From assembly GCF_003315205.1 (NCBI RefSeq), contig NZ_QNRR01000008.1, forward strand, positions 1-64,000: 64,000 bases of DNA, given 5' to 3'. The notes beneath the pieces were generated by a model. The model saw only the letters and a list, made by a program, of their open reading frames with translations, was not told the origin of the DNA and ran no database searches. Each line of letters starts with the position of its first letter. The stretch's first letter is position 1. The stretch comes from Roseimicrobium gellanilyticum (GTDB taxonomy: Bacteria > Verrucomicrobiota > Verrucomicrobiia > Verrucomicrobiales > Verrucomicrobiaceae). The position numbers were made by a program, and so were the translations under genes. Below, piece by piece: positions 18,655 to 39,825 of this stretch.

Positions 18655-18786
18655 AGGAGGTTAGGGCTTCTGCCCTGACAGTGGGCGTTAGGCCTTCTGG
18701 CCTGACGTTGATATGCAATCGCCGCGCACATGACTGGTCAGGCCGGGAGGCCTAACCACCACTGTCAGGCTGGAAGCCTAACCTCC
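18655..18786. repeat. Family B palindromic element, full copy
   Basis: The left half GGAGGTTAGGGCTTCTGCCC and the following TTAGGCCTTCTGGCCTGAC are matched in reverse order by the right half at 18736-18786, which ends AGCCTAACCTCC. Half copies of this unit lie at 30264, 37231 and, inverted, at 37868. Each half contains two small hairpins of the form TTAGGC...GCCTGA with one G-T pair. Confidence 0.88.
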
Positions 18787-30263: not shown

Positions 30264-30315
30264 AGGAGGTTAGGCGTCCCGCCTGACAGCGGGCGTTAGG
30301 CCTCTGGCCTGACGG
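30264..30315. repeat. Family B element, half copy
   Basis: AGGAGGTTAGGCGTCCCGCC at 30264 followed by TTAGGCCTCTGGCCTGAC matches the left half of the full element at 18655. No matching right half is nearby. Confidence 0.8.
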
Positions 30316-34498: not shown

Positions 34499-34637
34499 CC
34501 CGGTCCTACGCCTGTCGTGACATGGTGTAGTCCCTGGGGAGGACCATGGGCGTGGCACGGACGAACCAGCATGAGGCGTGTCCCAACCCGTCACCTTCCC
34601 GGTTGAGCTTTGCCCGGGGTGCTCGTACCATGGCCCA

Positions 34638-37226
34638 ATGCCGCAGCGCGACCTCCCGCACGCCAGCCATCGCCCGTATTCCTTTCTCCAGGCCCGTTGT
34701 TCCAACAAGCCTGCTGTCCTCGTGCTTGCCTGCGGCCTGGTGCTTTCACTTTTTACAGCGCCTGCCCACGCGCAGAAGGTCGCCTTGGCAGACCGTGCCA
34801 GCTATCAACTTGCCCTCGCTGCCTCTCAGGAAGGGATGCATGAAGTGGCCGCGCTGAAGTATGAAAAGCTGTTGAAGGAAAAGGACCTCAACAAGCAGGA
34901 GGCCGCCCAGCTCAGTGAGCGGCTCGTGGATGCCCTCATCCGCGCCGGCCTCCCGGAGAAGGCGCTGGTGGCCCTCACGCTCTTCGAGGTTCCGGAGGCC
35001 TCTTTCTGGAAAGCCCAGGCCTATCTCCAGCAGCACAAGTTTCGTGATGCCGAGTCCGAGCTGAAGACCTACCTCAAGGCCGCCGCACGCTACGCGTCGC
35101 AGGCGCACCTTGCCCTGGGGAAGGCCATCATCGGCCAGGGCCGCGAGAATGCCGGGCGCAAGGAGCTGAAGGATGTGCTGAATGACCCCTACGGCGTGCT
35201 CGCGGAGGTGGCGTATGATTTGAGCAATGAGTCCGAGGCCATGTCCGGGCGGGCGGACATCGTGCTGCGCCGTCTGGGGCCGGAGCGTGGCACGAATGAG
35301 TCTGAATTCGTCCGCGCCTGTGCCCTCCTGGAGGAAGGGGAGGGGAAGCAGGCGGAGATTGTCCTGCGCCGCTTTCTGGATGCAGGGCAGCCGCTTCCAT
35401 TGCGCCTGCATGATGCCTCCTTCGTGCGTCTCGCCGAGGCCTATGCCATGCAGGGCCGCACCATCATCGCGGGAAAGCGCCTCCGCGCCTTCATTGATCG
35501 CGGCACCCCGAGCGACTATCTGGAACAGGCCTTCGCCATGTTTCGCGCGCTGGTGCCGGACGAGGATGATGACACCGTTTTGAAGTATTTGCTCGCCTGG
35601 GCCGCGGACCCCACTCCGCCTGAGCGGCAGGCGCTCGCGCTCTATCACACGGGACAGTGGCTGCTGGAGCATGGACGCGGGGAGGAGGCCATCGGCTTCT
35701 TTGAGAGCTTCCGCGTCCTGCACCCAAATCACGCCCGGCAGGGAGATGCCCTGCGCTCGCTCATGGCCTTGTATGGCGCCGCCCGTGCGGATGACCGTGT
35801 GGTGGACCTCTGGCGCAGCCACTATGGGAATGCCGGTCCGGATATCGTGGACTACCTGCTGGGCATGGTCCGTTTTGCCCGCAGCGAGTATCCAGGCGCA
35901 GGCGACCACTTCCTGCGCTCTGCCGCGGAGACCACGGATACCCTGCTGCTACGCCTGGCCATCTACAATGCGGGCATGTCCGCCGTGCTGGGGAAGAATG
36001 AGGAGAAATTCCGCTACTGCCTGACCCAGCTCCAGCAGCCCGTGGCTGTGCCCCCCGGCGGCCTGCCATTGCAGCCCTCCTCCCAGGCGGTCGCGGAGGA
36101 CCAGGCGCCGAAGCTCCTCGTGGAGCGTGCCCTCGGCCTCGCTGCGAAGCGTGATCCCAATGCGGACAAGGCACTGGAGGAATTTCTTCAGGCGTATCCA
36201 AGTCATCCCCGCGCCGTGGAGGCGCACGTGGCACAGGCGGAACTCGCCATGCTGGACCTGCCCGCGCGCACGAAGGCCGCCGGCGCTGCCCTGGACGCTG
36301 CCGAGCAAATCCCTGCGCTGGAAGACAAGTGGCGCGAACGCCTCGCCTACATCCGCGTGTGGTGGCATGAGGCTGCGGGAAATCTGGAAGGTGTCACCGC
36401 CTCCGGAGCGAGTTTCCTCTCGCAGTGGACCGAGTCGGACTGGCGGGATGAAGTGCGCATGAAGGTCGCGCAGGCCTACTATCGACGGGAGGAATATGCC
36501 CGCGCGGTCGCCGAGTTTGAAACCCTCGCGGAGGAGCACGCGGATTCGCCGTATGCGGATGTCGCCATCTTCTTCGCGGGAAAGGCCGCCATGGCCCAGC
36601 TCACGCCGGCTGGCCTGGAGAGAGCCATTGGTCTGTGGGCAGAGCTCGTGGCGCGTGAGAGCCCGCTCGCCTCCGAGGCGCGCCGACAGCAGGCTGTGGC
36701 CAAGCGCCGCCAGGGCAAGGAGGATGAAGCGATGAGTGTCATCGATGCCCTCCTGAGCAGCAAGCCCGCGCCGGAAGGCGATGCGCGCTTCGACCTCATC
36801 ATGGAAAAGGGGGAACTCCTCGTGCTGCTTGCGCGCAAGGACCCGAAGAATCTCGATGACGCCGCCGCCGTCTTCCGCTCCGTGGTGGAGGACAAGAATG
36901 CCACGCGCGCCTGGCGCCAGCGGGCCGGCATCCTGCTTGCCCAGTGCCATCAGCAGGCTGGCCGCCGCTCCGCTGCGCTAGAGGCGTGCTTTGATGTGCT
37001 TGAAGGCGGCCTCTCCCCGCACGCTGCCATGCAACTCTCACTGCAGGACCGGGTGTGGATCTTCCGAGCTGGATTCATGGCCATCGAGCTCCTCGAAGCT
37101 CAGAAGCAATGGGAAGCCGCTGCGCGCTTGGCCGACCGTCTCGCCAAGATTGGCGGCGAACGCTCCGATGAAGCTGCCCAGCGCGCCGAGCGGTTAAGAC
37201 TGGAGCATTTGATTTGGGAGAAGTGA
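34638..37226 (+). CDS. Secreted TPR-repeat protein, 862 aa
   Basis: This large exported protein has a signal peptide (hydrophobic AVLVLACGLVLSLFTAPAHA, cleaved before QKVALADR). From about residue 50 onward it is a long run of helical tetratricopeptide-type repeats, recognisable by patterns such as AYLQQHKFRDAESELKTYL, AYYRREEYARAVAEFETLA and KDPKNLDDAAAVFRSVVED. It resembles the YbgF/BamD kind of periplasmic TPR scaffolds but is far longer. A start at 34578 would add 20 residues before the basic region. It is likely a periplasmic or outer-membrane scaffold; the partner is unknown. Confidence 0.82.
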   Translation: MPQRDLPHASHRPYSFLQARCSNKPAVLVLACGLVLSLFTAPAHAQKVALADRASYQLALAASQEGMHEVAALKYEKLLKEKDLNKQEAAQLSERLVDALIRAGLPEKALVALTLFEVPEASFWKAQAYLQQHKFRDAESELKTYLKAAARYASQAHLALGKAIIGQGRENAGRKELKDVLNDPYGVLAEVAYDLSNESEAMSGRADIVLRRLGPERGTNESEFVRACALLEEGEGKQAEIVLRRFLDAGQPLPLRLHDASFVRLAEAYAMQGRTIIAGKRLRAFIDRGTPSDYLEQAFAMFRALVPDEDDDTVLKYLLAWAADPTPPERQALALYHTGQWLLEHGRGEEAIGFFESFRVLHPNHARQGDALRSLMALYGAARADDRVVDLWRSHYGNAGPDIVDYLLGMVRFARSEYPGAGDHFLRSAAETTDTLLLRLAIYNAGMSAVLGKNEEKFRYCLTQLQQPVAVPPGGLPLQPSSQAVAEDQAPKLLVERALGLAAKRDPNADKALEEFLQAYPSHPRAVEAHVAQAELAMLDLPARTKAAGAALDAAEQIPALEDKWRERLAYIRVWWHEAAGNLEGVTASGASFLSQWTESDWRDEVRMKVAQAYYRREEYARAVAEFETLAEEHADSPYADVAIFFAGKAAMAQLTPAGLERAIGLWAELVARESPLASEARRQQAVAKRRQGKEDEAMSVIDALLSSKPAPEGDARFDLIMEKGELLVLLARKDPKNLDDAAAVFRSVVEDKNATRAWRQRAGILLAQCHQQAGRRSAALEACFDVLEGGLSPHAAMQLSLQDRVWIFRAGFMAIELLEAQKQWEAAARLADRLAKIGGERSDEAAQRAERLRLEHLIWEK

Positions 37227-37230
37227 TCTC

Positions 37231-37283
37231 GGAGGTTAGGCGTCCCCGCCTGACAGTGGGCGTTAGGCCTTCTGGCCTGACGT
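37231..37283 (+). repeat. Family B half copy, left border of a bracketed gene
   Basis: GGAGGTTAGGCGTCCCCGCC followed by TTAGGCCTTCTGGCCTGAC. This is nearly identical, in opposite orientation, to 37868-37917. It begins 4 bp after the stop of the TPR gene. Confidence 0.88.
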
Positions 37284-37369
37284 TCAGTGGTGCACAGTCT
37301 GTGAAGGTGCGGAAACGAAGAAGAAAATCAGCCGGCGCAAGACCACATTGAGTGACACAAACAACGGCC

Positions 37370-37831
37370 ATGGATCTCTCTCAGACACTTCCAGATGAGC
37401 TTTGGGTCCTGGACGACGAAAACGAAATTCACCGCTATGCAGTATCGGTGGCAGACTACAATGTCTACGAGAAGGGTGGCAAACACTGCCTGTGCATCTA
37501 TGCGCGGGCACCCAGGAAGATTTCGCCAGATGATTCCAATCCTGAACCCTGGATTGAGCTCAACTTCGATTCAACGAAGAGGAATGAGGTGGAATTGAAT
37601 CCAAATATTGTGCGCCATACTGGTGCCTATGATGACGTGGCGGGGCGGTGGCTGACGAACATCTACTACTACTCGCATGCTGGTATTGAGAATGTAGTGG
37701 TGCGCGTCATTGAGGTACTCCCTGAGGGGCGCGTCCTTTTGGATATCACGGGCGAAGGAGAAGTGGGTGGAGAAATTCGATTGAGAGGAACCTTCTCAAG
37801 CAATCCTGATAGAAAACGAAGCTTCGACTGA
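37370..37831 (+). CDS. Hypothetical protein bracketed by inverted family B repeats
   Basis: This 153-residue, probably cytoplasmic, mostly beta protein of unknown family opens MDLSQTLPDELWVLDDENEI; later parts include RWLTNIYYYSHAGIENVVVR and GEVGGEIRLRGTF. An ATG at 37352 is possible. Its base composition is visibly more AT-rich than the flanking TPR and gatB genes. It lies between two inverted copies of the same 50-bp repeat, which suggests acquisition as a unit. Confidence 0.7.
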   Translation: MDLSQTLPDELWVLDDENEIHRYAVSVADYNVYEKGGKHCLCIYARAPRKISPDDSNPEPWIELNFDSTKRNEVELNPNIVRHTGAYDDVAGRWLTNIYYYSHAGIENVVVRVIEVLPEGRVLLDITGEGEVGGEIRLRGTFSSNPDRKRSFD

Positions 37832-37867
37832 TTCCGCCGTCTTCGTCCCGGGTCATGACCTCATGTC

Positions 37868-37917
37868 GGTCAGGCCAGAGGCCTAACGCCCACTGTCAGG
37901 CGGGACGCCTAACCTCC
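37868..37917 (-). repeat. Family B half copy, right border, inverted
   Basis: Read on the minus strand this is GGAGGTTAGGCGTCCCGCC followed by TTAGGCCTCTGGCCTGACC. It is the same unit as 37231-37283 with two one-base length differences. Confidence 0.88.
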
Positions 37918-38019
37918 TTCGAGCTACACCTCTCACCGTCGCACCGAATCACTTGACCCCCGCCCCAGATTCAGCCACTCAAATAGACTCCGCATCGCCC
38001 CGCCCGCCCCGCCCTTTTC

Positions 38020-39483
38020 ATGCCCAAGTACATCACCACCATCGGCCTCGAAGTCCACGCGCAGATCAACACGCGGAGCAAGATGTTCTGCGCGTGCCCT
38101 GCGGAATACGGCGCGGACCCGAACACGCACACCTGCCCCACCTGCCTGGGCCTGCCGGGGGCGCTGCCGGTGCTGAACCTTGAGGCGATTGAGAAGACGC
38201 TCATCACAGGCCAGATGCTCGGCTGCAGCACCCCGGAAATTTCGAAGTGGGACCGCAAGAACTACTTCTACCCGGACATGCCGAAGAACTACCAGCTCAC
38301 GCAGTTCGACCTGCCGCTGTGCATCGGTGGCGGCGTGCCGCTGTATGAGTTCGCCTACCCAAAGGACGCGCAGAAGAACATCAAGAACCCCGGCAAGGTG
38401 GTGAAGCTCACCCGCATCCACCTGGAGGAGGACGTGGGCAAGAGCACGCACACCGGTGCTGGCACCCTATTGGACTTCAACCGCGCGGGCACCCCGCTCA
38501 TGGAAATCGTGAGCGACCCGGACATCGACAGCGCGGAGGAGGCCTTCGCCTACCTCAGCAGCCTGCGCCAGATCCTGCTCTACGGCGGCGTGAGTGATGC
38601 CGACATGGAGAAGGGTCAGATGCGCTGTGACGTGAACATCAGCCTGCGTCCCGAGGGCCAGAAGGAATACGGCGCGAAGATTGAGCTCAAGAACCTGAAC
38701 TCCGTGAGCGCCGTGCGCCGCGCCATTCACGCTGAGATTGAGCGTCAGACCGAGGCATTGGACCGTGGCGAGAAGCTCATCCAAAGCACCCGCCGCTGGG
38801 ATGACGACCGCGGTGAGACCCAGCTCATGCGCACGAAGGAAGACGCGCATGACTACCGCTACTTCCCCTGTCCCGACCTGCTTCCCATCCGCACGGCTCC
38901 CTTGCTCGCCGAGGCGAAGAAGCGCGTGCCCGAGCTGCCGCACGAGAAGTGTGACCGCTTCGTGAAGGACTACGCCGTGAGCGCGTATGATGCGAATGTG
39001 CTCGCCAGCGAGCAATCCCTCGCTGCATGGTTCGAGCAGGCCGTGGCCGCTGCCGGATCCAAGGTGCCCGCGAAGAAGATTGCCAACTGGGTCATCAACG
39101 AACTCCTTGGTGTGCTCAATGCCAACGGTGTCACCCTCGAGCAGTCACCCATCACTCCGCAGGCTTTGAGCGAGCTCGTCTCTGCAGTGGAGACCGGCAG
39201 CATCAGCAACAATCAGGCGAAGGAAGTCTTCGCCGAGATGTTCGCCACCGGCAAAACCGCCGCCGTAGTCATCAAGGAAAAAGGCTTTGAGCAGGTGAGC
39301 GATACCGGAGCTTTGGAGAAACTCTGCGACGACGTCATCGCCGCCAATCCCGCCAAGGTGGAAGAGTTCAAAGCCGGCAATGACAAAGTCCTCAACTGGA
39401 TGACCGGCCAAATCATGAAAGCCAGCGGCGGCAAAGCGAACCCGAAGATTCTGGGTGAGCTGCTGCGGGCGAAGCTGGGGTAA
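38020..39483 (+). CDS. gatB: Asp-tRNA(Asn)/Glu-tRNA(Gln) amidotransferase subunit B
   Basis: This 487-residue protein carries out the transamidation part of the GatCAB complex, making Gln-tRNA(Gln) and Asn-tRNA(Asn) in organisms lacking the direct synthetases. The N-terminal kinase-like domain opens ITTIGLEVHAQINT. The zinc-cysteine cluster FCACPAEYG...HTCPTCLGLPGALPVLN is followed by YFYPDMPKNYQLTQFDLP, which is diagnostic, and HTGAGTLLDFNRAG. The C-terminal YqeY-like tail ends with MTGQIMKASGGKANPKILGE. gatA and gatC are not in this window. Confidence 0.97.
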   Translation: MPKYITTIGLEVHAQINTRSKMFCACPAEYGADPNTHTCPTCLGLPGALPVLNLEAIEKTLITGQMLGCSTPEISKWDRKNYFYPDMPKNYQLTQFDLPLCIGGGVPLYEFAYPKDAQKNIKNPGKVVKLTRIHLEEDVGKSTHTGAGTLLDFNRAGTPLMEIVSDPDIDSAEEAFAYLSSLRQILLYGGVSDADMEKGQMRCDVNISLRPEGQKEYGAKIELKNLNSVSAVRRAIHAEIERQTEALDRGEKLIQSTRRWDDDRGETQLMRTKEDAHDYRYFPCPDLLPIRTAPLLAEAKKRVPELPHEKCDRFVKDYAVSAYDANVLASEQSLAAWFEQAVAAAGSKVPAKKIANWVINELLGVLNANGVTLEQSPITPQALSELVSAVETGSISNNQAKEVFAEMFATGKTAAVVIKEKGFEQVSDTGALEKLCDDVIAANPAKVEEFKAGNDKVLNWMTGQIMKASGGKANPKILGELLRAKLG

Positions 39484-39556
39484 ACGGTTCGACGGTGAGC
39501 GGTAAACGGTGCGACGGTGGGAGTGGTACGTGAAAGCTGCGCCAGCTCGCAGGGAG

Positions 39557-39596
39557 CGGGACTAGCCTTAGTCCCGTCATGGAGGCGCGAGCCTCC
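39557..39596. repeat. Two adjacent local hairpins
   Basis: CGGGACTAGCCTTAGTCCCG (39557-39576) pairs over 8 bp. Immediately after, GGAGGCGCGAGCCTCC (39581-39596) pairs over 6 bp or more. They resemble the arm palindrome of the element at 12256. Confidence 0.75.
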
Positions 39597-39660
39597 CAAG
39601 GAGCGGCGACTCACTCTGCACCTGACCGTGAGAAGATGAGGAAGCTGTGCCGAAGGCCTT

Positions 39661-39825
39661 GGACTGCGTGCAGCCTGCTGCCGCTTTCCAGAGTCCACAG
39701 CCTGCTGTGGCGATGGTGACACTCGCTCGTAGTGTGACATGCCTCGAAAATCTTGGCGACTACGTCGCGGTGGAGTGTGCAGCAGGCTGCACTTCAGGAA
39801 AGCGGCAGCAGGCTGCACGCAGTCC
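39661..39825. repeat. Inverted repeat, perfect 29-bp arms (GCAGCCTGCTGCCGC)
   Basis: Left arm 39661-39689 and right arm 39797-39825 are exact reverse complements with a 107-bp spacer. The spacer contains further copies of the inner word: CACAGCCTGCTGTGG at 39696-39710 and GCAGCAGGCTGCAC just before the right arm. Confidence 0.9.

Follow-up and report, generated by a model that had tools for sequence, protein, structure and literature searches.

An orphan gene bracketed by inverted REP-like repeats between a TPR gene and gatB in Roseimicrobium gellanilyticum: a candidate transposase-less gene element

The window considered here is a 64,000-nucleotide stretch of the R. gellanilyticum genome (contig NZ_QNRR01000008.1, positions 1 to 64,000). 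Between a TPR gene and gatB it carries a 153-codon orphan gene enclosed by two inverted copies of a repeat, designated family B, and the same window holds a compact inverted pair and a solo copy of this repeat. The genome itself (G000) comprises 7.93 Mb, and it is compared throughout with that of a sister species (G001), the only genome of the same genus that the searches returned. The features that bear on the analysis are as follows.

18656..18786, no strand: compact inverted B pair, REPIN-like, with 30 bp between the halves; counterpart pair in the sister species at L143:2032-2147
30265..30313, + strand: solo B half; counterpart in the sister species at about the corresponding place, L143:14736-14784
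34578..37226, + strand: flanking TPR gene, also in the sister species (96% amino acid identity over a 322-aa query)
37225..37926, no strand: stretch without counterpart in the sister species, between the blocks 34587-37224 and 37927-39707 that align with L094
37231..37281, + strand: left B half, made up of the GGAG tag, hairpin 1 (37235-37254), a 7-nt spacer and hairpin 2 (37262-37281); 80.3 bits with model R1
37282..37369, + strand: leader of 88 bp from the left B half to the gene
37370..37831, + strand: orphan gene of 153 codons, the only open reading frame between the halves
37869..37917, - strand: right B half, inverted, with GGAG outermost; 72.7 bits with model R1
37927..37958, no strand: degenerate remnant of repeat family A, common to the sister species beside gatB (read by eye)
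38020..39483, + strand: flanking gatB, also in the sister species

The initial annotation had described the segment as one AT-richer gene of 153 codons between near-identical half-copies facing opposite ways, and in these respects it holds. The edit distance between the two halves is 2, one base gained or lost at each of two places, and they are 100% complementary over arms of 26 nt (37245-37270 with 37879-37904) and 16 nt (37231-37246 with 37902-37917). The insert between them measures 587 bp, and the TPR stop codon lies 4 bp before the start of the left half. The G+C content of the orphan gene is 50.4%, as against 65.1% for the TPR gene, 61.5% for gatB and 59.8% for the window. A GTG further upstream, at 37352, is open as an alternative start of the gene; no sigma-70-like promoter match was found in the leader, and a search of 36000-39600 against Rfam returned two chance-level matches, neither of them on the segment 37231-37917. 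The lone half and the compact palindrome reported elsewhere in the window likewise stand as described, with one correction: since each half already consists of a tag and two hairpins, there are four hairpins in the compact element. gatB is also followed by copies of repeat family A, at 39479-39526.

The two hairpins that follow the GGAG tag in each B half have covarying stems. The alignment comprised 35 copies from R. gellanilyticum, 34 of them distinct; among the distinct copies, 99.6% of stem cells are paired. Half of the stem pairs (8/16) have changed on both sides, and 40 cells are compensatory compared with 9.4 in shuffles. Pairing, compensatory change and covariation score were each reached by 0/500 shuffles, and the number of further pair types was ordinary (109/500). 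A 64-nt query gave 49 matches in this genome, and a covariance model of the half identified 114 copies among the best 150 of 2681 candidates scored; in the sister species all of the best 150 of 2708 candidates matched, for a total of at least 150 copies. A strict-letter pattern search had given just 2 places and is superseded by the covariance model. No copies were found among the best 150 candidates from each of three genomes of another genus of the same family. Matches at 1e-6 occur in 9/59 genomes of the family, and the seven besides R. gellanilyticum and its sister have 1 to 7 among the best 100 candidates per genome. As far as searched, family B is strong only in this genus.

The arrangement of the copies was analysed in 42 stretches (830,238 bases), mostly chosen for containing B copies, which yielded 158 matches, of which the 4 weakest were dropped and 154 used. 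The tag is GGAG in 146/154, GGAA in 6/154, and AGAG and GTAG in 1/154 each; it is GGAG in 35/35 of the aligned copies from R. gellanilyticum. Some copies carry a tail of about 230 bp (T) and form arrays, and the insertion target displays only a weak A/C preference at positions -2/-1 of the tag. Five copies (L107:6830, L102:8273, L098:10309, L115:16603 and L120:10736) have in common the variant start GGAAGTCGGGTC; they score low with the B model and possibly constitute a separate B subfamily.

Y1_Tnp matches number 13 in R. gellanilyticum, and 1 of the 12 loci scanned has B copies within about 1.5 kb. A RAYT gene stands inside an inverted B bracket at C8:354186-355044 (L129:4187-5045); in the sister species another is so placed at L095:14938-15799, and a second lies between two B pairs in L107. 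Two of these three RAYTs were run against Pfam Y1_Tnp and scored 31.1 and 29.9 bits (cut-off 23), and all three score 58.5-66.4 bits with NCBIfam REP_Tyr_transpos, below its cut-off of 80. They carry NHVHAVF, NHAHVVF or NHVHAAF, which we take to be the HUH motif, and YIGRNPAKA or YIGNNPAKA, presumably the tyrosine motif. The RAYT elements are built of an inverted REP, a short leader, the gene and an inverted REP, with GGAG outermost, and the window segment is laid out alike. Because an inverted B bracket encloses a RAYT in both genomes, B is in all probability a RAYT-linked, REP/REPIN-like family whose tag is mostly GGAG, an assignment that is well supported: the many hairpin copies, the over-represented inverted doublets and the RAYT within an inverted bracket expected of REPs and REPINs were all found, and the canonical GT[AG]G tag was absent from all but the single copy tagged GTAG. 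The window segment is not a REPtron, since what it encloses is no RAYT gene, and its tag also differs from GT[AG]G. A simple swap of genes within a RAYT element was considered as the origin of the segment and rejected, as outside the B halves only 23 bp match L107 (E 0.008) and 10 bp match L095.

The initial annotation had further proposed that the segment moves in trans, like a MITE. The first part of this proposal now has a candidate enzyme in the RAYT within the same type of inverted bracket at C8. The second part is a loose likeness: MITEs belong to DDE transposases, in contrast to the relatives recognised here, the REPINs and REPtrons of HUH (Y1) transposases.

Among neighbouring B copies less than 1,500 bp apart in the set of 154, 41 pairs have the orientation seen in the window (+-), 6 have the opposite one (-+) and 42 lie on the same strand (++ or --), most of the last being arrays with T after each half. 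Gaps within +- pairs extend from 19 to 971 bp, and the closest -+ pair is 759 bp apart. Partners in +- pairs with inserts of 380-1000 bp have a mean edit distance of 5.9 versus 9.1 at random (10 pairs, 6/500), and those with inserts of 100-300 bp a mean of 4.4 versus 8.8 (14 pairs, 0/500); for the control -+ pairs the values are 7.8 and 8.8 (6 pairs, 169/500). Same-strand pairs display a weak partner resemblance (36 pairs, 22/500), and compact pairs of up to 70 bp no partner matching (17 pairs, 448/500). The excess of +- over -+ pairs and the likeness of long-insert partners bear out the earlier view that paired halves act as a unit. The window halves are no nearer each other than to several distant B copies, and the half at 37869 is identical to one other copy and 1 difference away from 7 more. 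At 5/41 B pairs, that of L120 included, the left flank has GCAAAG and the right flank CTTTGC, each no more than 60 bp away (background 2.5% per side); these pairs are centred in another palindrome, and the repeats thus appear nested.

At the TPR-gatB junction, the sister species aligns with the window until 37224 and then again from 37927 (37923 in other alignments), so that the species-specific stretch reaches 6 bp beyond the left half on one side and 5 to 9 bp beyond the right half on the other. No B copies occur at the sister junction, and the orphan gene and both B halves are jointly present in R. gellanilyticum and jointly absent from its sister; the two remaining B sites of the window are matched by B copies at roughly equivalent positions in that genome. 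The sister junction instead carries a different orphan gene, of 222 aa, amid copies of repeat A (L094:10262-11281), and this gene was found in 3/96 genomes, namely the sister species and two weak matches. That a different orphan gene occupies it in the sister may mean no more than that the junction is variable. A TPR match was present in 56 genomes, and across the 30 loci examined, that of R. gellanilyticum among them, gatB falls within the locus and its flank of about 1.5 kb in R. gellanilyticum and its sister only. A search for an empty TPR-gatB site yielded no clean empty junction, and no target-site duplication is visible by eye around the segment (flanks TGATCTC and TTCGAGC); movement of the IS200/IS605 type would leave none. 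Two side observations concern the same junction: a palindrome without B adjoins the 222-aa gene, and the two sister species carry different rare genes at one place.

The orphan protein belongs to no family in Pfam, PADLOC or PHROG, and NCBIfam gave just a match at E = 0.079 to an unrelated family. AlphaFold models reached a mean pLDDT of 39.4 (single-sequence) and 45.2 (two-sequence), too low for a fold search. The genome contains no second copy of the gene (the 1 match being the gene itself), and the same gene between the same repeats, sought elsewhere as a further copy of the cassette, was not found. Nor does the gene recur in relatives between the TPR gene and gatB without the repeats: among 96 genomes it occurs in R. 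gellanilyticum itself and as a weak homologue in one (G035) of the 95 relatives, and the sister species has its other gene at the junction. A wider scan of an 84,980-genome collection employed two short peptide patterns drawn from an alignment of two sequences, by which distant relatives could be missed, and returned 53 candidate stretches, 1 of which encodes a relative, the same protein as in G035. This sole relative found, with 31% identity, comes from a Verrucomicrobiaceae MAG (L141:1828-8345; JAIXYN010000019.1), where small genes lie between seven attC-like sites beside an ORF resembling an integron integrase (261.1 bits versus a cut-off of 265). Given its position in an attC-like array, the family of the orphan gene has elsewhere existed as a cassette. 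With up to 3 mismatches allowed, the window contains no instance of this array's attC-like motif, the one motif tried, and R. gellanilyticum has no match over cut-off to the one integron integrase model used (NF011946). The GTTAGGC within B was also considered as an attC feature; the idea was given up, since the arms that pair are inverted and GTTAGGC has GCCTGAC as its hairpin partner.

Filled and unfilled brackets were found at other loci. At L120:9821-11081 (C19) of R. gellanilyticum, B and T arms surround a 167-aa orphan gene, present in 1/57 genomes (this one), together with a variant B copy tagged GGAA; the counterpart in the sister species is an outer inverted pair (L142:6029-6391) with one T arm, and its loop is 24 bp long versus 919 bp. 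The arms are 93.8% alike within R. gellanilyticum and the right arm is 81.4% like that of the sister, so that either the left arm and the gene look recent or the arms have been homogenised. The suggestion that a palindrome was opened by a gene thus finds an instance in L120 and L142. At L095:14646-17172 of the sister species, outer inverted B halves enclose the RAYT and a 323-aa ORF in a 2.5-kb insert. A 293-aa part of this ORF occurs in 2/57 genomes (the sister and a partial 47% match in G010) and is absent from R. gellanilyticum, whose counterpart is a 28-bp GGAG..CTCC hairpin (L125:14307-14334), the sole match to this pattern in the 0.91 Mb examined and possibly an excision scar or a seed element. 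The RAYT stretch of R. gellanilyticum spans 3.8 kb where the sister species has about 120 bp instead, and L107 of the sister is a REPIN-RAYT-REPIN versus one REPIN in L127 of R. gellanilyticum.

A counter-case is provided by L102 of the sister species, in which a cluster of ORFs for small membrane proteins stands between B/T arrays and its homologues at the same place in R. gellanilyticum (L126; two ORF regions, 48-50% amino acid identity) have no B or T copy; brackets may therefore also form around genes already present. To the right of the L102 cluster the B copy has diverged (tag GGAA, 44.2 bits), so that the two sides do not make a matched pair. The other bracketed genes tested have no second copy in the 0.91 Mb, with just paralogues among the five L102 ORFs and the L126 homologues. 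Two further arrangements were recorded in the sister species: a 591-aa ORF with a weak DrmC match (E 8e-4) between inverted B/T arrays (L100:929-4381), and a nested array of the order B T B T B .. B T ORF T B T B (L103:6943-9146), which encloses a 139-aa ORF without a Pfam match.

Several known systems resemble the window segment in part. Integron gene cassettes share with it the small orphan gene, whose only relative found is such a cassette; unlike in them, the repeats here are inverted rather than direct, and no attC-like site was found with the one motif tried. In mobile insertion cassettes (MICs) the transposase is supplied in trans and the ends come from DDE insertion sequences, in contrast to the HUH/Y1-type hairpins that form the ends in the window. 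MICs are alike in having a passenger gene between inverted ends and no transposase of their own (e.g. PMC3913671). A REPtron consists of a RAYT gene with inverted REPs on either side (PMC2817692, PMC6006769); it matches the window in its two inverted, tetranucleotide-tagged, multi-copy hairpin repeats around one gene and differs in that the window gene is not a RAYT, the tag is mostly GGAG instead of the canonical GT[AG]G, beside which atypical classes are reported as well (PMC6006769), and each half has two hairpins. REPINs or BIMEs, the inverted doublets presented as the replicative unit (PMC3116915), are like B in the over-representation of such doublets and the RAYT in the same genome, and unlike the window segment, whose 587-bp insert with a gene compares with a short spacer. 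RAYT units of REPs/REPINs appear not to transpose as a unit (PMC6006769). Among titles and abstract openings, with subscription journals mostly outside the search, no paper was recognised that describes non-transposase genes carried between inverted REPs.

The best single reading of the window segment, which we regard as about evenly balanced between right and wrong, is that of a transposase-less, REP-bracketed gene element that arrived as one unit and was mobilised in trans. The bracketed orphan gene would have entered the TPR-gatB junction as a unit once the two sister species had diverged, through a RAYT acting in trans on the single-stranded B hairpins of the element, and an unrelated orphan gene would here take the transposase's place within the layout of a RAYT element. 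In its favour are the covarying hairpins, the pairing rule and partner likeness of the copies, the RAYTs within inverted B brackets, the joint absence of gene and repeats from the sister junction, the filled and unfilled loops of L120 and L142, the L095 insert opposite a 28-bp hairpin and the low number of brackets expected by chance. Against it count the lack of a second gene copy and of a visible target-site duplication, the likeness of each window half to distant copies, the compact pairs without partner matching, the L102 counter-case, the other orphan gene at the sister junction and RAYT scores below the NCBIfam cut-off. The RAYT would accordingly be expected to recognise B ends, the gene and both repeats would have come together, and the element may still be able to move.

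One serious rival, plausible though in our estimate somewhat doubtful, holds that two solo REP halves inserted independently beside the orphan gene in a variable junction and that the bracket is a coincidence. Solo halves exist, as at 30265, the sister junction carries a different orphan gene with different repeats, and the L102 arrays surround a cluster whose homologues have no B. Random placement, however, predicts only 0.013-0.104 single-gene brackets of the window orientation per genome under a model that places 20-60 solo halves, an approximate number, uniformly over the intergenic length; this lowers the probability of a coincidence without reducing it to nil, because hot spots are ignored. 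It also speaks against independent insertions that both halves lie no more than 10 bp from the edges of the species-specific stretch and that the RAYT element has the same layout. The other serious rival, which we judge unlikely, envisages that recombination between repeat arms, either homologous or by template switching, exchanged the loop contents, with genes coming and going passively and not by RAYT transposition. The arms of L120, more alike within the genome than between species, fit the inverted duplication or gene conversion that this implies, and recombination between direct copies gives just such a contrast as the REPIN-RAYT-REPIN of the sister and the single REPIN of R. gellanilyticum; the sister species, however, has no B copy at the window site to serve as an arm. 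Loop exchange may also follow a first insertion of the whole unit, and our gradings of unit entry, independent insertions and loop exchange overlap because the three are not fully exclusive. That the gene began as an integron cassette, lost its attC and only afterwards acquired REPs on either side is improbable, for although its only relative found is a cassette beside an integron-integrase-like ORF, the motif of the relative's array is lacking from the window and the one integrase model used gave no match over cut-off in this genome, and this reading concerns the origin of the gene, is compatible with the others and is silent on who placed the repeats.

Entry of the REP-bracketed gene as a unit, if correct, has consequences beyond this junction. 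Since neither the gene nor the repeats occur at this place in the sister species, small orphan genes may travel inside such repeats. A broader and rather unlikely extension is that RAYT-linked palindromes serve as a gene-capture system in this genus, lineage-specific orphan genes being placed between inverted REP arms, or moving in and out of their loops, in the stead of the transposase. Gene capture of this kind, an equally tentative notion, would resemble integrons in the reshuffling of cassettes of one gene each, but the cassette ends would be inverted hairpins and the HUH enzyme would act in trans. The literature presents REPs and REPINs as small elements (PMC6006769). If inverted REPs do carry unrelated genes, or hold them in loops of which a sister species has the unfilled form, these repeats would be a route of gene gain and of orphan-gene spread, and the way in which REPs themselves spread would become testable at full and empty sites.
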